64,000 bases of DNA, taken from Terramyces sp. JEL0728 (lineage: Eukaryota; Chytridiomycota; Chytridiomycetes; Rhizophydiales; Terramycetaceae). The notes beneath the pieces were generated by a model, which did not search any database, had not been told where the DNA came from, and was given only the letters and a program-made list of their open reading frames with translations. Shown here piece after piece: positions 14,587 to 31,146 of this stretch. How positions within the stretch are numbered: position 1 is the first letter of the stretch; each line of letters begins with the position of its first letter. A program made the translations under genes and the position numbers. The DNA is taken from contig JADIIU010000009.1 of the NCBI GenBank assembly GCA_027603945.1, positions 142,368 through 206,367 on the forward strand, in the 5' to 3' direction.

Positions 14587-14665
14587 TATCACATACCACT
14601 TATTTTATAATCTTTAATTGCAGATAAGTGAAATTTTGGCTATTTCAGCAATTTTTTTTCTGTTC

Positions 14666-16050
14666 ATGTCATCCCTTTTCCATTCAACTTTATCTAGAAA
14701 GACAAAGCAAGATATGAGAAGAAGATTTTTAGTTCATGGATTCCTAGTTGTACTTTTTTTATACTTGGTATTCTATCGAAAAGGACCGGCAGCTACTTTG
14801 GGCAAGCAATCGAAAGAAATTCCACAGGAGCATACAGGGATTTCAAACACTGATAAAGCAACTCTTTCAAAATATCATCCAACAGATGTCGCAGTCCTAG
14901 GAGAGCACTTGCGATTATTCAAAAAATACCACTCAATGAATCATGCAAGCCAATCTCCAGAATTTTACCATTTTAAAGGGTTGTTGGATGAAAAGCTATT
15001 TAATTGGATACAGCCATCATACTTGTCAACCATTGGCTTGCAAAATTCTTTTAATCGGACGGGAATAGTTCTGTGTGTGTATGATGCTTACGCGAAGCTT
15101 GCAATTTCAACCATGCAAATGATTCGGAAGGTTCACAAATGCAATATACCGTTTGAAGTATTTTTTATTGGGAATGACGATTTGTCTGTCGAGAACCAAA
15201 AACTAATTGAACAGATTCCATTTACAAACACCAGAGATATCACAAAAGTATTCAATAATGATATTTTGCAGCTGAAAGGGTATGTAAAAGTTAACTTAGA
15301 TGGGCAATAAAGCCGTTTGCGATGCTTGCTTCGTCCTTTGAAAATGCAATGCTGATTGATGCTGACGTTGTATTCCTGCAATCGCCAGAACAGCTATTTT
15401 CAAGCAAACTCTATAAAGAAAATGCAGCTCTATTTTATCATGATCGCAGTTTGTTCAAACCCAGCAAAGAAACCCTGGATTGGGTACGTAGTATCCTCCC
15501 GAAACCCTTATCGCCGTCGGTAGGAGAGCTGCGAATGTTTAACGAAAAGACTGGCCATGAAATGGAATCTGGTGTGGTTTTAATCAACAAAAAGGAAAGG
15601 CTTGTCGGATTGTTGGCTGTCGCTATTTTGAATGGCCAACTCTATCGAAAGCAGTCATATGAGCATTTCCACGGAGATAAGGAAACATTTTGGACAGGCT
15701 TTGAAGCTGTTGATGAAAAATACGCATTTAGTCCACACTTGCCCGGCATAACAGGAGTATCAAAGCAAGTAGAGGGAGAAACAGAAATCTGTGGAATGCA
15801 GCTGTTACATCTAGATGAAAGTAAAACACCAATGTGGATAAATGGTGGTTTGGCGGAGAGCAAGTATGATGATGATAGCCCTTTGGTGGAACTTAAAGAC
15901 TGGATGTCTGAGCCAGGAAGGTGGAAACTACGGCCTGGTAATCAAGCTTGCTTGTATAACACTGAACAGCCGTCAAAGTTCTCAATCAACATTCTCGATA
16001 CCATACTAAAGAGTGGGGACCTCTATTTGGCAATACGCAAAGGCGCCTGA
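14666..16050 (+). CDS. GT71 (Mnn1/Mnt-type) alpha-1,3-mannosyltransferase, copy 2, two exons
   Basis: Paralogue of the gene at 9979-11628 with a much shorter stalk. It has a basic start, a membrane anchor (FLVHGFLVVLFLYLVFY), GIVLCVYDAYAKLAIST, NAMLIDADVVFLQSPEQLF (DxD), HEMESGVVLINKKE, and WINGGLAESKYDDDSPLVEL. A 20-nt intron at 15280-15299 joins LKG to WAIKPFAMLASS; copy 1 has no intron there. The start could also be the ATG at 14714, which still keeps the anchor. Expected in the Golgi. The two copies flank a secreted-protein gene and two unrelated genes. Confidence 0.83.
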
Positions 16051-16467: not shown

Positions 16468-18144
16468 ATGTTTGAATTTATATTGATTGCCGGAACAGCT
16501 GCCCAGCTTGCGCTAACTTCTCAGTGGAATACAGCCAATTCTTGCTCTGGCGCACCAAATGCAATGTACAGTTTCGATCTTTTGTCTCCAGATAGCAGAA
16601 CTGCGCCAGCAGGTGAGGTTTGGCCGGTAGGTTATAGCCAACAAGCAGTAGAACGAACATTATACTCTGGATGTCTTGGTGTGACGGTAAAAGTACCTTT
16701 TTCTGGGTCTTGCTGTGTATCATTTTTAAGTTCAAGCTCTATTTCTAGCGCATCAACAGTTTCCGTTCAAGATTCTGTTAAAACTGATGCACCAGCAAGT
16801 GCTAACGGCCAAAAGTACTGCTATCTTCAAGGGAATGGAAATAATACCGTTTTTGGATTTAACAGCGCATGGTACCTTGCTGATGGGTCTTGTTCACTTG
16901 CAGACAATGTATCTTGTTCAGAAAATGGTGTATTATCTGTTTACCCAAATCCGAATTGCCAAGGTGCTGCAAAAACATTCCAGCTGCCAGCTACTCCCAT
17001 AACCATATCATTTACAAAGGCACAGGACGTCCAAGGTTCACTTACAACAGTTTCTTCAGGGCAAACTGCAGTAGGATGGGTTGCCTCGGTGCCGCTGACT
17101 ATGATTGCACCAAATTTTACAAATCCAATCATACCTATATTCTTTGTCCTGATCATTGCTATCTTTTTCACCATGCTATACGGAACAAGATTCTTGTACA
17201 TGGAATACATGGAAAAACGGACGGGATACATGCTCGGATTGCTAATATGTCAAATAGCTTGGACTATCTCCATAGTAACTCTGACTATGGGTAAATTCCC
17301 GGCTTTCAATGGTACTTTTTTCACCGGGATTTCTTTTATTATTGTGGATATTGCTTCGCTGGTATCGGTAATCACAGTTTCATCGTTTCTGATGCAGTTT
17401 TTGGGATACAGCCAGAGAGCAAAGTGCATCCTTTACGCAGTAATTGTGTTGGTGAATCTAACTATGGGTGCAAGCAAGTACCTTTTCTTTATTCCAAACT
17501 TGCAGAACTCTGTCAGAATGAATAGAATTGCATTGGGCTGGATATTTGGATTTGCTTTCTATGATTGCTTCCCGCCTATCTATGTCTCACTAACACTGTT
17601 GAAAATCAATTCCGACTCTCTTTCCAAAAGATGTCGTAAATTGGCCAAATATGATCCATGGTTTTTCACCGCTATGTTTGCCCATATTTTCAATGTTCTA
17701 GTTTACATTGCGTTCACGATTGCAAGGGAATACACGGCAGTATTCAAATCAGATCAATTTTGGGTCCAGTTTGGAAATCTGTCTACACTAATACTTGGGG
17801 TCCACGCAATGCTTAATATCTATCTGATAATTAGGTTGCGAATATTTGTAAAGAAAAGAAGCATTTTCTCCAGCTCTGATGACTACCACTTGTCTGGATA
17901 CACCTCTGCAGCCTACACTTCACGAATTTCCACCTCATATGCTAAAAACTCTATGATGCTGAGTCCATTACCTCCATCAAAAGGCAATTCGAAACCATCG
18001 CATACCGATTCCTACTACCCTCCATCCGCGTCTCCGCTAGGAAATTCAAAGGCAAATGGATCTTACTTTGATTCGAAACTACCTTCTCCTAGAGCTGCAA
18101 ATCCAAAACCCCAGTACAATCAACTAAATATTTGGGAAAATTAG
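16468..18144 (+). CDS. Seven-transmembrane receptor-like protein A with Cys-rich ectodomain
   Basis: A 558-residue intronless protein. After a signal peptide, about 200 extracellular residues carry conserved cysteines and motifs (NSCSGAPNAMYSFDL, WPVGYSQQAVER, GCLGVTVKVPFSGSCC, YCYLQGN, VFGFNSAWYLADGSC, YPNPNCQG). Seven hydrophobic helices run from about residue 218 to 456, for example NPIIPIFFVLIIAIFFTMLY and STLILGVHAMLNIYLIIRL. A 100-residue Ser/Pro/Tyr-rich cytoplasmic tail starts IFSSSDDYHLSG and ends QLNIWEN. The layout is that of a GPCR, but I recognise no known GPCR class motif such as DRY or NPxxY. Paralogues are at 18555-20210 and 25456-26892. The ligand is unknown; the ectodomain might bind carbohydrate or protein. 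Confidence 0.75.
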   Translation: MFEFILIAGTAAQLALTSQWNTANSCSGAPNAMYSFDLLSPDSRTAPAGEVWPVGYSQQAVERTLYSGCLGVTVKVPFSGSCCVSFLSSSSISSASTVSVQDSVKTDAPASANGQKYCYLQGNGNNTVFGFNSAWYLADGSCSLADNVSCSENGVLSVYPNPNCQGAAKTFQLPATPITISFTKAQDVQGSLTTVSSGQTAVGWVASVPLTMIAPNFTNPIIPIFFVLIIAIFFTMLYGTRFLYMEYMEKRTGYMLGLLICQIAWTISIVTLTMGKFPAFNGTFFTGISFIIVDIASLVSVITVSSFLMQFLGYSQRAKCILYAVIVLVNLTMGASKYLFFIPNLQNSVRMNRIALGWIFGFAFYDCFPPIYVSLTLLKINSDSLSKRCRKLAKYDPWFFTAMFAHIFNVLVYIAFTIAREYTAVFKSDQFWVQFGNLSTLILGVHAMLNIYLIIRLRIFVKKRSIFSSSDDYHLSGYTSAAYTSRISTSYAKNSMMLSPLPPSKGNSKPSHTDSYYPPSASPLGNSKANGSYFDSKLPSPRAANPKPQYNQLNIWEN

Positions 18145-18163
18145 ATTGGATATTAATAATAAA

Positions 18164-18523
18164 TTAGAATGTATTACTCGGTAATTTTTGGTTATAATAA
18201 TCCAACGCACTATCTCGTTTACGGCATTGATTGGTGGTTTCATCTAAAGTAACGATAGGCCTTAGTTTGCAAGAGTAAGGCCGGACTATCCAAAATTGGA
18301 GATTTTTCATTTGTTGATTAACTGGCATTGTTTGCCGAATTGGACATCCAATTCCAATAAAACAAAGATAGAACCCAGAGACTGGAACTGTGTGTGCCAA
18401 ACCTGTTGTAATGCCACTATCTGTGCGATATCTGAATGAGTATTTACCTACTTGATTGATCGCCAAGAATAGAAGACCTCCGCAGTAACCTATATTTAGC
18501 CATTTCTGGGACCAACAGTACAT
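18164..18523 (-). CDS. Small hypothetical membrane protein
   Basis: A 119-residue frame starting MYCWSQKWLNIGYCGGLLFL with a second hydrophobic stretch (TGLAHTVPVSGFYLCFIGIG), then a basic, Cys-containing tail. The composition is protein-like and the ATG lies only 31 bp from the divergent start of the 7TM gene at 18555. I do not recognise the family. A GT..AG string at about codons 27-33 could be read as an intron but leads to a stop, so the frame is kept intact. It might be a small organellar inner-membrane protein; that is a guess. Confidence 0.45.
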   Translation of the reverse strand: MYCWSQKWLNIGYCGGLLFLAINQVGKYSFRYRTDSGITTGLAHTVPVSGFYLCFIGIGCPIRQTMPVNQQMKNLQFWIVRPYSCKLRPIVTLDETTNQCRKRDSALDYYNQKLPSNTF

Positions 18524-18554
18524 AAAAGCTACTTGGATCGTGGGCCAAAAGCAA

Positions 18555-20210
18555 ATGGAGTTGGTGTTTTTACTAACTGCTGTAGCTGCCAAATTAGCAC
18601 TAACTACCGAATGGACTGAACAGAATTCATGCAGCGGCCCTCCAAATTACATGTATCAATTCGATTTAAGGTCGCCAGATGCTTTTACTGCTCCTGTAGG
18701 TGAACAGTGGCCAGTTGGGTATATTCAGCAAGCAACCGAAAGGCCGATTTCAACTGGCTGTTTGGGGATAACTGTCAAAGTACCATTCGTTGGAGCATGC
18801 TGTGCGCAATTCCTCGGTGATATTCCTTCTACCGCCGGTACCTCAAGCAGTATAACAGAATACATCTCGGACACGCCTTCCTCAGCGGTACCTGAAAGCG
18901 CTACTGGAAACACATACTGCTATTTGCAAGGGAAAACATCAGCAAGTGTATTCGGGTTCAATGCTGTGTGGTATTTAGCAGATGGTACATGTGCCAAGGA
19001 CAGCTTGATTTGTACTCCAGAAGGAAACGTCTCAATCTTCCCGAATCTAAATTGCCAAGGAAATCCGCAAACATATAATTTGTCAGTTGCTCGATCAATT
19101 ACTGTCAAAAACAAGGTTGTCGGTGATGGCTCGCTGGTTACTTTTAACGGAACTGGTCTCGCTGTTGGATGGACGATATCGGTTCCTCTAAGTCAAATGT
19201 CCCCAGACTTTACCAACCCGTTAATCATTTTCACAGCATCTGTTTATTGCATGATATTCCTATTGATGGTGTATGGCATCTACTTTCTAGCAAAGGAATA
19301 TCTGACTAAACGAACCGGATACATGCTTGGATCGCTGGTTTGTCAAACAGCTTGGACGGCCACGCTAGTTTTGCTTGGCATGAACGACTTTCCAAAGTTT
19401 GAATATGACACATTCACTGCTTTGGCTTTCTGTACAATCAACATTGCGACCGTCATATCTGTAATCACCGTTACTGCTTTCCTGTTCCAATTTTTGGGTT
19501 ATTCGGATAGAGTAAAGTACGCTACTTATACGTGCATTATAGTTGTCAATGCCATAGCCGCGTCCAGTAGGTATTTGTTTTTCATCAAGAATTTTCCAAA
19601 TAGGGTGCTATTCAATCGCTTTAACATGCTGTGGTTCACATTCTTTGCTTTTTGGGACTGCTTTCCTCCAGTATATGTTTCGTTTTCGCTACTAAAGATC
19701 AATTCCGATTCTCTGTCAAAACGAGCACGCAAGCTGGTAAAATACGACCCGTGGTTCTTTGCAGTAATGCTGCTCAACTTGCTTTTAGTCGTAAGTTATA
19801 TCTGCTACGCATTTGTTCGCGAATACACTTCTGTTTTGAAAACTGATCGGAATTGGACAGAATTCCAAATGATTGCAATGTTTATCCTCAGTATTCACTG
19901 TATGCTCAATTTATATTTGATAATCCGGCTACGAATATTTGTTAAAAAACGTAGTATGTTTTCAAGTTCAGACGATTACCACTTGTCAGGGCCGCTACAC
20001 TCAACTTCACGAGTATCGCAATCTACATCAATCGTTTCCAAGAGTGCACTGCCAGCACCTCTACCTCTGGCTAGACCTAGCACTTTTAATTACTTTGATA
20101 GCACGCTAACCGCGATGGCTCCAACCCAGAAATCTCTTGTCGGATTTGATAGCTCCACTCGATCTTCGTCAAAAACCACGTACAGCCAAATTAACGTGTG
20201 GGCCAATTAG
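18555..20210 (+). CDS. Seven-transmembrane receptor-like protein B with Cys-rich ectodomain
   Basis: A 551-residue paralogue of protein A in direct tandem, intronless. The signal peptide (MELVFLLTAVAAKLALT) is followed by the same ectodomain pattern: NSCSGPPNYMYQFDL, WPVGYIQQATER, GCLGITVKVPFVGACC, YCYLQGK, VFGFNAVWYLADGTC, FPNLNCQG. The seven helices include RTGYMLGSLVCQTAWT and HCMLNLYLIIRLRIFVKKRS. The cytoplasmic tail begins MFSSSDDYHLSG and ends YSQINVWAN, the same ends as in A, while the tail middle has diverged. Loop motifs KINSDSLSK and KYDPWFF are identical to A, suggesting coupling surfaces under selection. Proposed to be a plasma-membrane sensor. Confidence 0.75.
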   Translation: MELVFLLTAVAAKLALTTEWTEQNSCSGPPNYMYQFDLRSPDAFTAPVGEQWPVGYIQQATERPISTGCLGITVKVPFVGACCAQFLGDIPSTAGTSSSITEYISDTPSSAVPESATGNTYCYLQGKTSASVFGFNAVWYLADGTCAKDSLICTPEGNVSIFPNLNCQGNPQTYNLSVARSITVKNKVVGDGSLVTFNGTGLAVGWTISVPLSQMSPDFTNPLIIFTASVYCMIFLLMVYGIYFLAKEYLTKRTGYMLGSLVCQTAWTATLVLLGMNDFPKFEYDTFTALAFCTINIATVISVITVTAFLFQFLGYSDRVKYATYTCIIVVNAIAASSRYLFFIKNFPNRVLFNRFNMLWFTFFAFWDCFPPVYVSFSLLKINSDSLSKRARKLVKYDPWFFAVMLLNLLLVVSYICYAFVREYTSVLKTDRNWTEFQMIAMFILSIHCMLNLYLIIRLRIFVKKRSMFSSSDDYHLSGPLHSTSRVSQSTSIVSKSALPAPLPLARPSTFNYFDSTLTAMAPTQKSLVGFDSSTRSSSKTTYSQINVWAN

Positions 20211-20535
20211 AATATATACATTTCATTTCACAAGGGTAGAGTTGCACCGACTGTAAACGCACCGTTAAATTCCAAATAGATGTTCTCTATCCCAAAGTAG
20301 TTGTCAATATCCATATTTCTTAATTCTCAAGTCACCACCAATTCTGTGGGAAATAAGGGTGCGCATTTCGTCAAACTAATGAGCTGATTCATAGCATCTG
20401 TTCCTTCAATGGCGGCACAAGACTCCACTAAACGTTTTGCAATTCCGATTTCGAGCCTCGTTCCTAGGCTCGAACAATGATTGGTTAATGAGCTCAGACT
20501 TACAAAAATTGTAGAGCAAAAAAAGTCTATCAAAA
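20211..20535. other. Intergenic region with an unresolved possible minus-strand gene
   Basis: These 325 bp separate 7TM gene B and the MFS gene. On the minus strand two adjacent segments look protein-like: about 20400-20460 (IGIAKRLVESCAAIEGTDAM) and about 20310-20370 (FDEMRTLISHRIGGDLRIKK). They are in different frames, and I could not find a GT-AG intron or an ATG that joins them. It may be a small gene with an unusual intron, or a relic. Confidence 0.25.
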
Positions 20536-22032
20536 ATGAACGACAGTCCAACCCCGCTACCCATAATTAAGATTGCCGTCATCTCAACTATAATATTTTG
20601 CAATACGTAACAAGATTACTAAAGATAGATTTATGGCAACTGTATTATTGCCTTTCCTGTCATTCATGATTTCAGATTTCAATGTAACTCCAAATCCAGA
20701 TGAAATCGGTAAATATTCCGGATATCTAGTCGGATCTTTTATGCTTGGGCAGCTAATATTTTCATACGTATGGGGCACTATAAGCGATCGTATTGGTAGA
20801 CGGCCAATATTAATTGTGGGATTGATTTTGACGGCATTTTCTTTCCTTTCGTTCGGATTCTCTACTTCATACACTATGGCGATTATCCTGAGATTAGTTA
20901 ACGGATCTGTAAATGGGATTGTTGGTGTGTGTAAAACTTATTTATCGGAAATCACAGACAGCACCAATCAAGCTAAAGGGTTTGCATTTTTAGGTGTGAT
21001 GCGTGGATTAGGAATGGTAATTGTTTTTAATATCAGATTGTCGGACCAATAGTTGGTGGGTTCCTTTGCTTGCCTGCCGAAAAGTACCCAAATGTCTTTC
21101 CAAAAGGTTCCTTGTTTGACATGTTTCCGTATGCTTTACCCTGCGTGGTTGGCTGGGGAATTGCTATGATTGGAACTCTGGTTGGATTCTTTGTTTTGGA
21201 GGAAACAAACCAAGCTGCTATGGCATCCAAGAGACGTACATTTTTCTATACATGGCTCAATAATAGACAAGAAACATCACCGCTATTACAAGACCAAGTC
21301 GATGATTCAATTACAGAAATCGAATCTGAACCACGGCTTTCGATTTGGCACCTGTGTTGCATCCCAAGAGTGCATTATTCATTCATATTGTATATGTTAA
21401 CTTCGTTTATCTATATCCAATATGACGAGCTATTTGCTTTGTGGTCACGCTTACCGATTGAAGAAGGCGGTTTGAACTTTTCCTCTTCTGATCAAGGTGC
21501 TGCATTTGCTATTGGGGGATTTATGCTCTTTTTTTACCAAATCTTTTTGTTTGCTCCAATTGAAAAGGCTTTGGGATGCTTAAAGACGTTTCAAACCGGC
21601 TTGTTGCTGTCCCTGCCTGCGTTTATTATCTTGCCGCTGATTGGAAAATATGGAATGTTGCACGAAGGAAGAGTTGAATATCTCATGTGGACTCTTGTTG
21701 GGGCATGTAATATCTTGAGAACTATTGGCGGTGTTCAGGCCTTTACTTCCACTTTCATCATGGTGTCCAACTCTGTTACTTCCAACTATAGAGGCCAAAT
21801 CAACGGATCTGCGCAATCGCTTGGTAGTATTGGAAGGTAGTCAGTAGTTAATTATAGAATGCTCGGCCCAATTTTTGCTGGCACATTATTCACTTGGTCG
21901 CTGGAGAGCAGTTTGCCATATCCATTTGATTATCACTTTGTGTTTAACCTTTTGGCTGTCATCATCTTTGTCGCTTATCTGATCTCTCTTAGAATGCCGA
22001 AAGATATTGATAACCGCCTAGAAGAAGACTAA
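20536..22032 (+). CDS. Major facilitator superfamily transporter (ZIFL/MFS-1 type), four exons
   Basis: About 475 residues, polytopic. The first helix (PIIKIAVISTIIFCNTFMAT) is split by the 22-nt intron 20607-20628. The MFS signature loop is WGTISDRIGRRPILIVGL, followed by GSVNGIVGVCKTYLSEI and MIVGPIVGGFLCLPAEKYPN, a pattern seen in fungal and plant zinc-induced-facilitator-like transporters. Introns 21017-21036 and 21837-21857 restore helices 5 and 11. The cytoplasmic central loop carries a TSPLLQ motif. It ends in an acidic C-terminus. Substrate unknown; export of a small organic compound or drug/proton antiport is the family norm. Confidence 0.85.
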
Positions 22033-22057
22033 TTGTATTTTAATAACTAATAAAACT

Positions 22058-22316
22058 TTATTCCTGTCCATTTTTCTCGGCTTCTTTCTGAACTTCCATA
22101 AACCTGCTGTTCAGCGATGTTGGTTTAGCGCTACATGAGTAAACTGTTACGATTTCATCAAATGGTTGCGCTTGGCTTCAATTTTCTGTGTCATTGGGGA
22201 AAACATGTTATCAGTTGGACTTTTAAGTACGCTTCATGAATCTAATCTTACCTCTTTGGTTTGCTTAACAAATTCTTGTTTACTAGCTGTGGTTGGTTGT
22301 CTTTGTCAGAGAGCAT
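22058..22316 (-). CDS. Spo12-like small nuclear protein, three exons
   Basis: Splicing two short introns (one of about 30 nt, one of 20 nt) gives a 68-residue protein with the core LLSKPKSPTDNMFSPMTQKI followed by EAKRNH. This resembles the Spo12 motif of fungal mitotic-exit regulators (SPTDxxxSPxTxKLxxxR). The remainder is polar and short. Spo12 proteins act in the FEAR pathway of Cdc14 release in yeast; transferring that role here is inference. The first intron is longer than usual, so its borders are tentative. Confidence 0.5.
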
Positions 22317-22386
22317 TTGCGATTGTCTGGACAAAAATTCAAAACTGGACAGCGTAAATGCATTATTTATTATACAAATATTAATA

Positions 22387-23101
22387 TTAAGAATTCCAGG
22401 TGTCGTCGAGTTCCTTTTCTCTCTTTTCCTTATCCCGCTTCACCCGCTCTTTCCTTTCTGCCGTTAGTAAATAGTACCTCTGGCGTTGTATAATTTAAGT
22501 TCATCAGACTGTTTTTCTTCTTGGGATTTCTTTGGCGGCCTCATTCCCAATGCCCCAGCAATTAGCCTCCTTGCGACCATATCTGTTGTCGTTGGCCTTA
22601 TGCTATTGGCATTGTGTGAATTCGAGGTTTGCACTGGTGTTTGGCAAGGTTTAATCTGCTGTTAGCAATTAAATACATTTGCTAAAGGGTATTGGCAAGT
22701 TGCAATGTATGCTCGTTTGGCTGGTTAGTGAATCGATTACCTAATTCTTGATTAGGAAATATTGCAATAGCTGATGTATCATTTATCCATTTCAATTTCA
22801 ATCCAGAGGTGTCCACACTCTTAAAAATTGCTATCACATCGTGGGTTTTAAAATGAGGCGGAAATCCAGAGACGTCCAGGCCAGTTGTGCTTTCAAAATC
22901 TACCTGCGGGGATTTTTCCTCTTGATCTTCAAGTTCCAACCTTTCCCACTCCTCTATACTATGAACTGAATTTGACCTGGTGCTTTTTTGGTCAGAATCG
23001 ACAGCAAGATCATTGATTTCTGGTAAAATATCCTCATTATTATTCTGGGTTTCAATTATATCCTTATTTCTATCATCCAAGCTCTCCTTGGACTTTGCCA
23101 T
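22387..23101 (-). CDS. R3HCC1L-like (growth inhibition and differentiation-related) protein, four exons
   Basis: About 220 residues: an acidic low-complexity N-terminus, an RRM-like segment (DVSGFPPHFKTHDVIAIFKS...GLKLKWINDTSAIAIF), then the diagnostic RPTTTDMVARRLIAGALGMR and a Lys/Glu/Arg helix ending REKELDDTWNS. This order matches the C-terminal half of animal R3HCC1L/R3HCC1 (TARRLVxGALGxR). Introns are 22721-22740, 22656-22676 and 22458-22477. No R3H domain is visible, so the protein is shorter than the animal form. The role is uncertain; possibly RNA-linked. Confidence 0.75.
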
Positions 23102-23277
23102 TTTAAGTATGACGGTGGTTGGAATTGGTGACTTGAATGATCCTCGCCCTTTCCTTGTCCTTTCCTTTGGGCTATTTACACTCTCATCACTCTTTGACTT
23201 TTCCTAAATTAACAATCGAGCACTCCTAAAGTAGCCATTTTGAAATTTGAAAAAGTTTCGCGCTAAAAAAATTTGAT

Positions 23278-25413
23278 ATGCCTCCAAAGAAGAAGGGAAA
23301 GAAAAAGGACTTGAACAGAGGTACGGATTATTAATAGTTAGAAAAAGAGCTGGAAGAGCAGCGCCGTATTGCTGAAGAAGGTAAATAGACGCGTAATCTA
23401 AAGAACAACGACTTCTGGAAGAGAAATTTAGAAAGGAAAAGGAGCTGCAGGAACAAAAGAATAGGGAATTTATTACCCAGTATTTGGAACAAGTATTTGG
23501 TAATTAACGAAAGGAAACTCCAAGATTTGAAGAAGAACTGGCTAAAGTTGCAGACGTCAAAAGCAAACATTTACAAGCGCTGAAGGATATTTTGGAAAAG
23601 AAACAAAGCATAGTAGATGTAAGATTGAACTAATATAGTGGAACAAATACTTGGAATGTAGTAAATTGCCCTCCACCAAAATTGAGCGAGATGTCAATAC
23701 TTATATTTTGCTGTGGGAACAAGAGCCTGTTGTATTGGAAGATCTCCAGCAGTCGATGGATTTGCTGTTGACGCAATTGCCAACTGCCAGAGAAGTAAGT
23801 TCCTCTTTATATTAGTTGGTATTGCTGTTGGAACAGGAACGATGTACATTCCTTGAAGATGACGACATGGCCAACTATGACAAGATTTCTCGTTATGTTT
23901 ACAAATTAAACCAAGTAATGTTCAAGAAAATTGAGCAAGTTTGCCAAAATATTTACCAAGTAAGTTTAGCTGACAACAGCACCTGGATTTATTTCAGAGA
24001 GAAAGCACAGACAATTTTCAATTCACTAGTGATCTTACCGACTACAAGATTGGTATTTGGGCAAACTTGACTAGGAATCCTAGACACAAGTTTATTGATT
24101 TTCCAGAAATCACAATGTCCTTTTCGCTTCCTAAGCCGTTGGCATTGGATAATGTTGGCATTCGAATGCTATTTAAAAGTGGTGATGGATCTGCTGCAAG
24201 TTATGAATCTACAAATGGAGGACCTTCTGTTGCTATAATCGGAGGAGCATTGCTGTTTGATTTGGTTGAACTGCCAGAAGCAGCTAGAAAAATAGATTCT
24301 TGGACCATTAGACCGGGTATATACATTTTAATTTAGTGCTGACTCAAGACGGCTCTTTCAAGAGGATTCCATATCCTACAAAAGCAGATAAGGAAGTGGC
24401 AGGCGATGAAGAGTCTCAAACAACTGATTTAGCAGTGTGGGCAACTCAGGTAACATTTACAATAATGCCACATTGCTTTATTGACAGCTCTGCTACTGTT
24501 ATGTTTTTCGACCCAGAACTAAAACAATGGAGTTCGGACGGAATCAAAGACGTCGAATACGACCAACAGTCAGGAAGAGTTAGGTTTAGAACAATGAGAT
24601 TCTTGGATACTGCATTGGTACAAAACAGATACCTGGAATATCCGCTTCAAGACTGGACTTTGGAACCGAAAGGTTACAATAGTGCAATTTTGACAATAAG
24701 AGGAAAAAACAATGAATTAAAAATTGAAATTGGAGAGGGTGAATGCAGAGTATTGAATATGGTGAATGATTATCACAGAAAAATGTTTAGTGATTGGCAC
24801 CCACCTGCATTACTGCTAAAGGTATTCGCTGCTCACGATAGAAATTATCTCAAATAGGACTGAACTTTATGGGGCCAAAGAGCATGAACAATATCGACAT
24901 TGGCGATTGGATCTTGAAAGTATTTTGTTTTTAATGGTAGCATCAAAAGTCGGAGGCAGTGTGTTTGGACGGGATCAGTCAGTTATGTGCAGCATACCAT
25001 ATTCGAAAAAGTCCACAAAATGGGGTTGAATCAACAACCAAATGTGTTTTCCAGTGCAAAGAAGTTGGAGCCGACCCAATAGTTACAGTCGACGAAAACG
25101 GTGCTGAAACTGCTACCGAGGATTGGAAATCAATCATTTATAATAACAACTACAAAGTTGGAGACAAAACATTCCAATTTTCATTCGTTACTTCCGGCAC
25201 TGACGTTACCGATGAAGCAAACTTTACAGTGGATAATGCCCCAAACTTGAAGGTAATCGGTGCTCACGTTAGACTGCTGCTGATGTGTATACACTAATGA
25301 AAGAAGGGCTGAAAAGGGAAAAGAATATCGAAAACTTCAAGGAGGCTTCACCTCTATTCAAACAGACAGTGCTGAAAGTCTTTAGACTGACAAGGATCTT
25401 GGTGTTTTCTTGA
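23278..25413 (+). CDS. DNAI7: Axonemal dynein inner-arm subunit DNAI7 (CASC1/IC97), eleven exons
   Basis: Component of the inner-arm I1 dynein complex of motile flagella. The start MPPKKKGKKKDLNR, then a charged helix (EKELEEQRRIAEEEQRLLEE) and VDWNKYLEC, are the classic CASC1 N-terminus. Later segments KIGIWANLTRNPRHKFIDF, FFDPELKQWSSDGI and the end TAADVYTLMKEGL...TVLKVFRLTRILVFS also fit. Ten introns of 20-23 nt are needed: 23321-23341, 23381-23403, 23493-23513, 23619-23638, 23795-23815, 23960-23979, 24317-24336, 24822-24841, 24920-24940, 25253-25272. Its presence implies a motile cilium or zoospore. It is the most intron-rich gene in this part of the window. Confidence 0.9.
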
Positions 25414-25455
25414 ATATTTTATTAGATAAATTAATAATTGACAAACAACGTATTA

Positions 25456-26892
25456 TTAAGCGTATAGCGGAGATAATGAGCCATATTTATCCTGAAGTTG
25501 CTGCAATTTCTCTGTTGCCTTTTTTGAAATGGATTGGATTCGCAAAAGGAGAATCACATTGAGGAATCCGTGGGTTGCCAGGATCACCGTAAAGAATCCG
25601 GCTATGGATTTCCAGTTTTTATCAGATCCAAGCCAAGAAGTAAAGGTAGTAATGTAGATGAGGGCAAAGAATGAGGCAAAATTAGCGAAATGCATCCCCA
25701 TCGACAGCAGGAATACAGTATCTAGATCGCGCAGCCGTTCCCACATTGTTTTTGGCCTTTCCGGGTCATGAGTGAACGAAAAGAATGCATAGATTGAAGG
25801 TATAATGTCGTATAATCCAAAAAAGATAAGCCAGATTTCAAACATAAGACTGAGAGCAGTGGATTTTATGAAAAATAGGTATTTGTTCAGACAAAATACC
25901 ACATTAATCAAAATTATAGTTCCCAATGCGATTATCCTTCCTTTGCTGCCAAGGTCGTGGAATTGCACCAAAATTAATGTAGCACCTAGTACGGATACAA
26001 GAGTAGCCACGGATACAAAAAAATTAACAGTGTAATGTAGATTTGATGGCGGATTCTTGGTGTAAAACTCTGCACACATCAAAATGGTGGTAATCAGGAA
26101 CAGAACTTCACTGGCGAGCATTGCAAGGAGAAATGGTGAGAGACTATGCATAAACTCTCTCGTCAAAGGTATAATTGCAACTGCTACCATGAATATTGAT
26201 CCTATTGTGAATATCGCCGAGAGAATATCTATCCAGCACATGAAATCTGGAGTCAAGTCGTTAAATGGTACAACTGCAATCCAGTTCATATCAACCTCTC
26301 CCCCTGATACTCCAATAAATGTGGCTGTTGCGTTTGCAAAAGTATTGGAGCTGATGATTTGGGCAGAATCTTGAAGTTGAAAGATTTGAGGATTTCCAGA
26401 ACAAAGTGCTCCTGGGAATACTTTCAGCACGCCATGCTCTGTACATATGATATTATCAATTGAATTGCAGCTATTGTCTGCTAGATACATTATGCTTGAA
26501 AATCCAAAAATATTCCCTTGAAGTGTGCAGTATTGATGGCTATTCGCTGTGCGAGGCATGGATTTCGTAACGTTATTGTTTGCCAGGACAGTCACTGCAC
26601 TCTGGATTCCAAAAGAGTTTGACAAGTCCAAACTGTTTACGCAACACCCACCAGATATTGGCACTTTTAACGCTCGTCCTCTACATTGATTTCCAATTGG
26701 TATTTCCTGTGCCTGAAAGATGTAGCTGTGGGGCCAAGTATCTCCAACCGGCTGCGATGTAGCTGTCGCTGAACTGATGTCAAATGTGTACATAACTTTT
26801 GGACTTCCATTACAATTTTCGCTGCCCCAAGATGATGAAAGCGCTAAGCTAGAAAAAACTGAATTCAAAAATACAAGCTGAAGGATATACAT
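25456..26892 (-). CDS. Seven-transmembrane receptor-like protein C with Cys-rich ectodomain
   Basis: A 478-residue intronless, more divergent member of the family at 16468-20210. The signal peptide MYILQLVFLNSVFSSLALSS is followed by NCNGSPKVMYTFDI, GDTWPHSYIFQAQE, CRGRALKVPISGGCC, YCTLQGNIFGFSSIMYLADN and FPGALCSGN. Seven helices follow (for example WIDILSAIFTIGSIFMVAVA and FLTTILM-type segments). The cytoplasmic tail is short and ends LQDKYGSLSPLYA, so the FSSSDDYHLSG and NxWxN motifs of A and B are missing. The ATG at 26892 is chosen because the upstream extension starts only at a TTG. Probably a receptor with different or no tail partners. Confidence 0.72.
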   Translation of the reverse strand: MYILQLVFLNSVFSSLALSSSWGSENCNGSPKVMYTFDISSATATSQPVGDTWPHSYIFQAQEIPIGNQCRGRALKVPISGGCCVNSLDLSNSFGIQSAVTVLANNNVTKSMPRTANSHQYCTLQGNIFGFSSIMYLADNSCNSIDNIICTEHGVLKVFPGALCSGNPQIFQLQDSAQIISSNTFANATATFIGVSGGEVDMNWIAVVPFNDLTPDFMCWIDILSAIFTIGSIFMVAVAIIPLTREFMHSLSPFLLAMLASEVLFLITTILMCAEFYTKNPPSNLHYTVNFFVSVATLVSVLGATLILVQFHDLGSKGRIIALGTIILINVVFCLNKYLFFIKSTALSLMFEIWLIFFGLYDIIPSIYAFFSFTHDPERPKTMWERLRDLDTVFLLSMGMHFANFASFFALIYITTFTSWLGSDKNWKSIAGFFTVILATHGFLNVILLLRIQSISKKATEKLQQLQDKYGSLSPLYA

Positions 26893-28020: not shown

Positions 28021-29073
28021 TTAGCAAGTTAATCCACAAACGGAAGCAACTCTAGCGACGCAGGTTTTTGCCCATCTCGTTCTTCCACAGTAAGCATCGT
28101 CTGCAATAATTTGATCGACACAAGAATCGCAGCCGGTGGCTAATCTAACACCTACAACACATTTATCGTGAGCACAGGTCGTTGCTGGAGTGGTTGCAGT
28201 TGGTCCAGCAGGAGGAACAGCAGTAGGTTTGGTAGGAGTGGTGCCTGCACATCCGGCGAAAGCAGCGTTTAGCTGGGCAGCAAGTCTGTATCCACCTTTT
28301 GCCAACTGCATGTCGATAATGGAAGCTGCCCCCTTGTAGTAAGCTCCAGAGAGGTCGGCACTTGGGTTTGCATCATAGTTTTTCCATGTGTATGAGCAAT
28401 CGAATTTATCAGAGTCTTTTGAGTAGTCAATGGAGGCCAGGTTGTTACCATATTGAGACTTTGCATTGTAAGCTTGAGAAGAAATCCAGGATGCAGCAAC
28501 AGAAGAGTAGTCGCCAGACTGGATTCTTTTGATCAAGGATTGAACATAAGTTGCTTGATTGGTATTGGCAGAGATTCTATCAATAACCATTTCAGAATCC
28601 CAGATGTGATGAAAGTTTGTAGAAGCACCATTGTAGGTGACTTTGTCAGAGTTGCCTCCTACATCTCTGTAAGAGTTGTGGAGAGGCTGAGTAACATCTC
28701 CAAAGAAGTGGATGAGGAATTTGAGAGCCATGGCATTTTGTGAAGCATCACACAGCTGCTCGGTGTAGGTTTGGATGGCAGTGTTAATACAAGCGGCTTT
28801 GGTACAGTCTCTGACTTCATTGAACCCGCAAGAAGTTGGAGGGCTATCTTGAATATCTACAAAATGTAGTGGTTTGGAAAAGGCTCCAGCACTAGTGTAC
28901 TTGTAAGTATCGGCCCAAGAGGCTACAGAAGCCATATCGCTACTTGACAAGATTTGGCTGACAAAGGATTGAGCGTTGGAATCCAGGAAGCTTTGGGCAA
29001 TAGATCCCACTATGGCGTGGCCTTCAACACCCCAGGCGTTTACAGGAGCGGCAGTGAATAAGAATTGAAACAT
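28021..29073 (-). CDS. Secreted S1/P1-type zinc nuclease A with one C-terminal Cys module
   Basis: A 350-residue intronless protein. The signal peptide is cut before WGVEGH, so the mature N-terminal Trp and His are zinc ligands as in nuclease P1. Further ligands: ASWADTYK (Asp), KPLHFVDIQD (His), FLIHFFGDVTQPLHNS (His, Asp, His) and FHHIWDSEMV (His, Asp). After a Thr/Pro linker comes one 50-residue cysteine module (CAHDKCVVG...CDSCVDQIIADDAYC...W...CVARVASVCGLTC). It cleaves single-stranded DNA/RNA and 3' nucleotide phosphates; here it is probably used for extracellular nutrient salvage. It is a tandem paralogue of 29510-30772. Confidence 0.92.
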   Translation of the reverse strand: MFQFLFTAAPVNAWGVEGHAIVGSIAQSFLDSNAQSFVSQILSSSDMASVASWADTYKYTSAGAFSKPLHFVDIQDSPPTSCGFNEVRDCTKAACINTAIQTYTEQLCDASQNAMALKFLIHFFGDVTQPLHNSYRDVGGNSDKVTYNGASTNFHHIWDSEMVIDRISANTNQATYVQSLIKRIQSGDYSSVAASWISSQAYNAKSQYGNNLASIDYSKDSDKFDCSYTWKNYDANPSADLSGAYYKGAASIIDMQLAKGGYRLAAQLNAAFAGCAGTTPTKPTAVPPAGPTATTPATTCAHDKCVVGVRLATGCDSCVDQIIADDAYCGRTRWAKTCVARVASVCGLTC

Positions 29074-29509: not shown

Positions 29510-30772
29510 CTAGCAAGAGATTCCACAGACTGAATTCACCTCAGCAACACATCTAGAGTTCCAGCCTTTCTTTCCACAGTAGCTGTCCGAGGCAATAACT
29601 TGATCAGCGCAAGCATTGCAACCGGTTTGCAAGAAAGCGCCGGTAACACAAATATCATGCTTGCAACCAGTAGTAACAACGTCTGGAGAATCTTTTTGGC
29701 AATCGCCTAAACCGCAGACAGATTTTACTTCATCAACACAGTTTTGATCCCATTGAGTGGTGGAGCAGTAGCTATCAGCGGCGATAACTAAAGCGACACA
29801 GCTATCACATTTTTTAGACAATGGGCCACCGACAGAACATTTATCGTGAGCACATTTGGTAGGTGGGACAGGAACTTTTGTTGGGGTAGGACCAGCAGGG
29901 TTTGTGGTAACAGCTGGAACAGGTGGTGGAGTGCTGCCAGAGCATCCAGCGAATGCAGCGTTCAGCTGTTTAGCCAATCTGTAACCGCCTTTGGCCAATT
30001 GGATGTCAATGATTGGAGAAGCACCTTGATAGTAAGAGCCAGAGAAATCTTGGGATGGGTTGGCGTCGTATTTGGACCATACATAAGAGCATCCATACTT
30101 GTCGGAATCGACAGAGTAGTCAATGGATGCCAAATTGTTGCCATATTGAGATGCTGCGTTATATGGATGGGAAGAAATCCAGCTAGCAGCTTGTGATGCA
30201 TATTTGCCAGAAGAGATTCCTTGGATCAAACTGCTGACATAGGTAGATTGATCAGAGTTTGCAGCAATACGATCTTGGACCATTTCAGTGTCCCAGATAT
30301 GATGGAGATTGCTTTGCTTGCCATTGTAGCTGACCTTATCGCTGTTGCCACCTGTATCCCTGTTTGAGTTGTGAAGAGGTTGAGTGACATCCCCAAAAAA
30401 GTGGATCAAGAAGCGAAGGGCATCCAAGTTAGTTGAAGCGTCACAAAGCTGGCTTGTGTAAGTTTGGATGGCAGTATTGATACATCCGCCGTTTGGACAA
30501 TCTCTGCTTTCATCAAACCCGCAGGAAGTTGGAGGACTGTCTTGGATATCGACATAGTGCAAAGGCTTGGAGAATGCACCAGGAGCAGTGAATTTGTAGC
30601 TGTCAGCCCAAGTAGAGACAGATGCCATATCACCGTTCGACAAGATTTGACTGACAAAGGATTGAGCGTTGGAATCCAAGAAGCTTTGTGCAATAGATCC
30701 AACAATTTCATGTCCTTCTGTGCCCCAGGCGTTTACAGAAGAAGCCAAAAGCAATTGTACAATAGTATCCAT
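29510..30772 (-). CDS. Secreted S1/P1-type zinc nuclease B with two C-terminal Cys modules
   Basis: A 420-residue intronless paralogue of nuclease A. The signal peptide MDTIVQLLLASSVNA is followed by WGTEGHEIVGSIAQSFL; zinc ligands recur in STWADSYK, KPLHYVDIQD, FLIHFFGDVTQPLHNS and LHHIWDTEMV. After a Pro/Thr/Val linker there are two 50-residue cysteine modules (CAHDKCSVG...CDSCV...DSYC...WDQNCV, then CKHDICVTG...CNACADQVIASDSYC). The second-module gain is the main difference from A. The ATG at 30772 fits the signal peptide; the longer frame to 30862 begins with TTG. The modules may bind a wall or host polymer; this is inference. Confidence 0.92.
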   Translation of the reverse strand: MDTIVQLLLASSVNAWGTEGHEIVGSIAQSFLDSNAQSFVSQILSNGDMASVSTWADSYKFTAPGAFSKPLHYVDIQDSPPTSCGFDESRDCPNGGCINTAIQTYTSQLCDASTNLDALRFLIHFFGDVTQPLHNSNRDTGGNSDKVSYNGKQSNLHHIWDTEMVQDRIAANSDQSTYVSSLIQGISSGKYASQAASWISSHPYNAASQYGNNLASIDYSVDSDKYGCSYVWSKYDANPSQDFSGSYYQGASPIIDIQLAKGGYRLAKQLNAAFAGCSGSTPPPVPAVTTNPAGPTPTKVPVPPTKCAHDKCSVGGPLSKKCDSCVALVIAADSYCSTTQWDQNCVDEVKSVCGLGDCQKDSPDVVTTGCKHDICVTGAFLQTGCNACADQVIASDSYCGKKGWNSRCVAEVNSVCGISC

Positions 30773-31146
30773 ATATGATTTTGGAATTCGTTTTTCTTTA
30801 TATCCCCATTGAACACGTTCTTCGGTGCACCTGCTGTGTGACTTGAGCGAGAGGCAATGCACAAATCAATTCCCAAGCAGTCTCCAGCGTGGTCAACTTC
30901 TCGAAAGCTTGAAAGAAAATATTTTACGTTCTGATCAAAAACACAAACGACACTGTGTATTAACCAGTGTTTCTTTAATTTATCTGAGGTGCCAGGCTCA
31001 ATTTTCTCGTGGGGTCGTCGCCAAAAATGAACAAGAGCTGGGTAACAACGTGGTCAACAAAGAAAAATTCCCTAAACAATCAACACAAAGTAGTGATGGC
31101 CTTTCACAAAGCCTTGGAAATGCAGGGTAAGAGCAAGTACAGCATA
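30773..31146. promoter_or_regulatory. Upstream region of nuclease B, no gene seen
   Basis: A 374-bp stretch between nuclease B and the ADP-ribosylglycohydrolase gene, both on the minus strand. TTTATATCCCC lies about 25 bp upstream of the nuclease ATG and could be its TATA region. A 100-codon plus-strand frame at 30825-31130 lacks an ATG start and has no protein-like composition, so it is not called. Confidence 0.35.

Follow-up and report, generated by a model that had tools for sequence, protein, structure and literature searches.

A 64,000-nucleotide stretch of contig JADIIU010000009.1 (GenBank assembly GCA_027603945.1, positions 142,368 to 206,367 of the forward strand; hereafter the window, numbered from its first letter) of Terramyces sp. 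JEL0728, a soil chytrid and saprobe of the Terramycetaceae (Rhizophydiales), carries three genes, A, B and C, each an intact single-exon open frame, whose products join a cysteine-rich N-terminal ectodomain to seven predicted membrane helices. Our analysis places them in a family of about 103 loci in this genome, with no credible match in the sequence libraries searched. The features that define the family in the window are:

16468-18144, + strand: protein A (P0001), 558 amino acids, with an N-terminal leader, an eight-cysteine ectodomain, seven helices and a Ser/Pro-rich tail
16525-17115, + strand: ectodomain of A, residues 20-216, with cysteines at 26, 69, 82, 83, 118, 142, 150 and 164
17128-17853, + strand: seven-helix part of A, residues 221-462
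18555-20210, + strand: protein B (P0004), 551 amino acids, architecture as in A, its sister
25456-26892, - strand: protein C (P0003), 478 amino acids, architecture as in A with a short tail

The resemblance of A, B and C is not due to chance, since a genome search with A alone recovered B (E 4.6e-170) and C (E 2.1e-66). A shares 51% identity with B and 31% with C, and the alignment of the three spans their full length except for the C-terminal tail, which is absent from C. The combination of a cysteine-rich ectodomain with seven helices, which a preliminary description had read in all three proteins, is borne out by the alignment, the averaged hydropathy and, though they are poor, the structural models. 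The conserved blocks quoted in that description are all present in A and B, whereas C carries WPxxYxxQAxE, YCxLQG and FGFxxxxYLAD exactly but has ENCNG in place of NSCxG, QCRG in place of GCxG and LCSG in place of NCQG.

When the 15.0-Mb genome was searched in six frames, A (E<=1) matched at least 55 times and three divergent members (E<=0.01) at least 86, 62 and 90 times, respectively; once merged, these matches form at least 109 non-overlapping places on 42 contigs. Six of the 109 are, by reading, second pieces of split genes, leaving about 103 loci, so that the family, whose size the preliminary description had left to be counted, extends far beyond the three window genes and occupies about 1% of the genome (about 103 loci x 1.5 kb / 15.0 Mb). 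Full-length members (at least 430 amino acids from Met) number 56 in the stretches read, including A, B and C, and a further 23 places have stop-to-stop frames of at least 430 amino acids with no internal stop, which brings the total to about 79 of the 103 loci; the remainder are shorter, split or stop-bearing, with introns and decay not distinguished. Many members stand in tandem: in the stretches read, full-length genes form 14 neighbour pairs on the same strand, and 11 of these are 63 to 276 bases apart. Fusion of tandem neighbours through an intron was considered and rejected (0 of 11 neighbour pairs joinable in frame). Duplication within the family is recent or ongoing, as shown by nearly identical pairs on contigs C24 (L048) and C15 (L055/L057), with 99% and 97% protein identity, respectively; two places on contig C60 also have near-identical scores.

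Across the 56 full-length members (numbering of A), each of the eight ectodomain cysteines is present in 89-100% and all eight occur together in 49, the ectodomain holding exactly eight cysteines in 47 members, nine in four and fewer in five. Other conserved residues are P30 (95%), W204 (95%), P209 (91%) and W358 (89%), together with an aspartate (D429, 98%) in the loop that leads into helix 7. In an ectodomain alignment of 33 members, hand-picked so that most members with odd N-termini were excluded, eight of the ten invariant columns are cysteines.

Neither part of these proteins had been recognised in the preliminary description, and we likewise found no credible match to ectodomain or helices in Pfam or among PDB sequences, nor any strong match of a whole protein to an established G-protein-coupled receptor (GPCR) or transporter family in either library. 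Pfam-A was scanned with A, B and C at E<=10, with 48 proteins at E<=0.1 (45 from Terramyces, A, B and C among them, and three from Boothiomyces) and with one further member (L037) at E<=1; among these 49 proteins the best E-value was 0.012. A and B had no match at E up to 10, C had a single one (E 0.19, its 12 bits falling short of the cut-off of 27), the 48-protein scan gave six weak matches to unrelated families, each in one member, and L037 gave two, both under their cut-offs. PF00001 (7tm_1), PF00003 (7tm_3), PF05730 (CFEM) and PF06814 (GOST) matched none of the 49 proteins, and Dicty_CAR, Git3, Ste2/Ste3, 7tm_2, Frizzled, HlyIII/PAQR and Solute_trans_a were equally absent from these scans. 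CFEM occurs in some Pth11-like proteins only, and its absence says nothing on Pth11 helices. Searched against PDB sequences, the whole-family profile gave two chance-level matches (E 1.5 and 8.9) and the ectodomain profile none.

Profile scans do work on the Terramyces genome, because genes of four seven-helix families were recovered by them (rows over cut-off: 7tm_1, 32 of 39; 7tm_3, 10 of 11; GOST, 5 of 5, representing two genes by reading; Dicty_CAR, 1 of 1). The 7tm_1 search placed one weak row on a family gene (contig C16, 19.3 bits, cut-off 30.5), which by reading is out of register, and the family is separate from all four sets and more numerous than each. Using hhalign, the helix profile reached a probability of at most 1.28% against four class A receptors of the same genome and at most 0.64% against four of class C, with reversed sequences reaching up to 1.27% and a transporter 0.06%; class A scored 19.9 against 14.1 for its own reversed set, yet reversed class C scored 20.0. 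By this comparison the helices seem no closer to the class A and C receptors of the genome than the reversed controls are. Some of the class A-like genes form a tandem array, with seven 7tm_1 matches at C69:57423-65046 (part of it being L074), on a contig that also has nine family places, and more 7tm_1 rows lie on contigs C85, C48, C17 and others.

Hydropathy averaged over the 56 members resolves seven segments (in A, 221-240, 261-273, 291-307, 320-337, 359-373, 401-417 and 440-452), a single-sequence script being noisier (exactly seven segments in four of the 56, six in 19, five in 17 and other numbers in 16). Basic residues cluster in two intracellular loops, the first (ICL1) and the third (ICL3), and in the tail, and N-glycosylation sequons are in excess over shuffled ectodomains; charge bias and sequon excess are both found whether or not a member has a hydrophobic N-terminus. 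The averaged hydropathy and positive-inside counts of the 56 members indicate a predicted topology with the N-terminus outside and the C-terminus inside, and the conserved cysteines of the ectodomain would probably be paired in disulfides. AlphaFold models of A and B, run with seven sequences each, were poor (predicted local distance difference test, pLDDT, 46-48). Both have seven long helices after residue 220, and a fold search with the helix part of these poor models returned a weak resemblance to GPCR bundles. The ectodomain is mostly below pLDDT 50, with a few blocks at 50-66 and low-confidence strands in the model of A, and permits no statement on its fold.

By a crude hydropathy window, used in place of a trained predictor, 40 of the 56 members lack a signal-like N-terminus, although by eye some of them (for example L021, L023, L025 and L028) seem to bear a leader, and in two (L035) the N-terminal part is missing. 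In 27 of the 40, the first conserved cysteine comes no more than 18 residues from Met, near the expected leader end of A. Among the 53 full-length members beyond the window, 42 have nothing signal-like among their first 25 residues. A hidden leader exon was examined as an explanation in the 40 of these 42 with enough upstream sequence and rejected: one of the 40 has, within 420 bases upstream, a hydrophobic exon that could be joined by GT-AG splicing, against a shuffle mean of 3.75%. Tandem gaps such as 63, 72, 95 and 102 bases also leave little space for one. In the leaderless members, either helix 1 would export the ectodomain or the simple test overlooks atypical leaders.

Local duplication, as proposed in the preliminary description, holds for A and B, which are sister genes in the tree (support 0.999), but C joins them with a support of 0.455 only. 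The genes between B and C are unrelated to the receptor-like family, and the surroundings of the three genes comprise:

14618-16047, + strand: mannosyltransferase-like neighbour outside the family (compare P0006, PF11051), the first exon frame alone being without a Pfam match
20594-22032: transporter-like gene between B and C, labelled from reading of the frames, the tested frame being without a Pfam match
about 23816-25297, + strand: gene between B and C resembling CASC1, an axonemal protein (PF12366, 24.5 bits, under the cut-off of 26.2)
28024-29073 and 29513-30865, - strand: two adjacent S1/P1 nuclease genes

Relatives were sought in a collection of 5.8 billion proteins, with candidates chosen by shared five-residue words and sensitivity limited accordingly. 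A, and then a 48-row alignment, returned the same five proteins, one of which was B, the closest outside relatives all being from Boothiomyces (P0005, 72%; P0006, 73%; P0007, 55%; P0008, 55% identity). Residues 6-120 of a central paralogue returned one protein among 32 candidates, the neighbouring paralogue P0009 (Terramyces sp. JEL0728 HDV01_006685). Outside Terramyces this word-based search found relatives in Boothiomyces only, which is not proof of absence from other chytrids. The neighbourhood is conserved between the two genera: in P0006, a gene model of Boothiomyces sp. JEL0866, an A-like protein is fused to a mannosyltransferase domain (PF11051), and P0007, on a contig of equal length, carries the locus number directly after it.

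Receptor-like seven-helix expansions are already known, and the titles and abstract openings of the open-licence literature on Boothiomyces, Terramyces and chytrid or fungal receptors gave no description of this family with its ectodomain. In the parts available to us, a 2025 survey of 1357 fungal genomes distinguishes 17 GPCR classes, proposes the DUF6534 proteins of Basidiomycota as new and reports seven-helix protein clusters mostly without Pfam domains (PMC12842992). The proteins scanned here had no Pfam match to the class profiles listed in its table, and family members could sit unnamed among seven-helix clusters in data of this type.

We propose, with a probability of about 0.55, that these genes encode plasma-membrane receptors that have a GPCR-like topology, signal through G proteins and serve perhaps in zoospore chemosensing, and that together they form a large family specific to the lineage. 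The disulfide-bonded eight-cysteine ectodomain would sit on the extracellular side of a seven-helix bundle, contact with a ligand or surface at the ectodomain and helix bundle would be passed to the basic loops ICL1 and ICL3, and these would most likely engage heterotrimeric G proteins. The hundred or so tandem copies would then form a chemosensory repertoire, plausibly one by which swimming zoospores locate substrate. The zoospore role is suggested by chytrid biology, family size and the tandem nature of the genes; plasma-membrane location, G-protein coupling, ligands and life stage are guesses. The sensing function suggested in the preliminary description, above all in host recognition, is likewise a conjecture. 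After merging of rows, at least 12 G-alpha genes can be counted in the genome, seven of them on contig C65 (13519-15954 and 59944-66082), a cluster that is large for a fungus. It also has RGS-domain matches, including an array at C2:278513-281964 with four over the cut-off and one below. No physical link between G-alpha or RGS genes and the family was found in the genome, and a supposed G-alpha gene beside the array on contig C109 was set aside as Arf-like by reading.

Mean pair identity is higher in the ectodomain (26.8%) than in the helices (17.4%; 1540 pairs), which does not fit a simple variable-ligand-domain model, in which the ectodomain alone would discriminate many ligands. Among six close or local pairs the helices are slightly more similar in two, and in A/B the two parts are equal. 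On average, then, the ectodomain is the more conserved part, which points to a structural or binding role common to the members, and the helices may be the seat of specificity.

A bolder version, which we regard as less likely than not, is that the proteins form a new superfamily of eukaryotic chemoreceptors that has no sequence relationship to described classes, with a new eight-cysteine fold and with many members exporting a domain of about 185 residues through the first helix without a cleavable signal peptide. The better conservation of the ectodomain, and its richness in cysteines and sequons, would also suit a surface adhesion or cell-wall/substrate-binding family, in which the ectodomain binds polysaccharide or wall protein and the helices act as an anchor or assembly platform. 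We consider this unlikely, since an anchor needs neither seven helices, nor an aspartate conserved at 98% (D429), nor basic intracellular loops. Receptors for self/non-self or mating recognition, as opposed to environmental chemosensors, might also be encoded in diverse tandem arrays with recent duplicates such as those on C24 and C15. That role is improbable in our view, the synonymous to non-synonymous codon differences of these pairs (12:5 and 6:6) being too few to demonstrate diversifying selection.

A trafficking or chaperone function of the GOST/Wntless kind, with a lumenal domain before seven helices in the secretory pathway, has the same gross plan, and the low-confidence strands in the ectodomain model of A would agree with it. 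We hold it to be quite improbable, because PF06814 matches none of the 49 proteins though the same profile recognises the GOST genes of this genome, and a copy number of about a hundred would be unusual for housekeeping proteins. Seven helices, and the large chemosensory expansions typical of the insect odorant receptor/gustatory receptor (OR/GR) and gustatory receptor-like (GRL) superfamily, could point to ligand-gated channels of that kind. This is very improbable, since the part of the GRL study available, which lists one candidate in each of two Spizellomyces chytrids, gives these proteins an intracellular N-terminus (PMC7746228), against the outside position predicted here from charge bias, cysteines and sequons.

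To our knowledge, the receptors that guide the zoospores of early-diverging fungi to food or hosts are largely unexplained, and about a hundred receptor-like genes would offer an obvious candidate set for zoospore sensing in this lineage. If the eight-cysteine ectodomain is a new fold, a new sensor module would be added.

Among named systems, the GOST proteins (GPR107/108, TMEM87, TMEM145, GPR180, Hi-GOLD) resemble the family in having a domain directly before seven helices and differ from it in profile and copy number. They are reported from the Golgi, nucleus and clathrin vesicles (GPR107/108) or from the plasma membrane and vesicles (GPR180) in the portion seen of a choanoflagellate survey (PMC12716839), which also names RSF and GPRch1-3. 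The insect OR/GR and GRL channels share the seven helices and, in insects, the repertoire-style expansion, but have the opposite N-terminal orientation. The Pth11-like/CFEM GPCRs are fungal, expanded and in some cases provided with a cysteine-rich N-terminal domain before the seven helices, but the 2025 survey, as far as available, confines the Pth11-like receptors to Pezizomycotina (PMC12842992), and the CFEM domain is unmatched here. Class C GPCRs of early-diverging fungi likewise combine a large extracellular N-terminal domain with seven helices and number approximately 100 in anaerobic gut fungi, according to the accessible part of the report (PMC5168858); unlike them, the family is unmatched by 7tm_3 and has no profile similarity to four class C genes of its own genome. 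The class A (7tm_1) receptors of Terramyces share with it the seven helices and the tandem arrays (one on C69), whereas the four that were read are 308-310 amino acids long, lack the ectodomain of about 200 residues and remain at or below 1.28% in hhalign.
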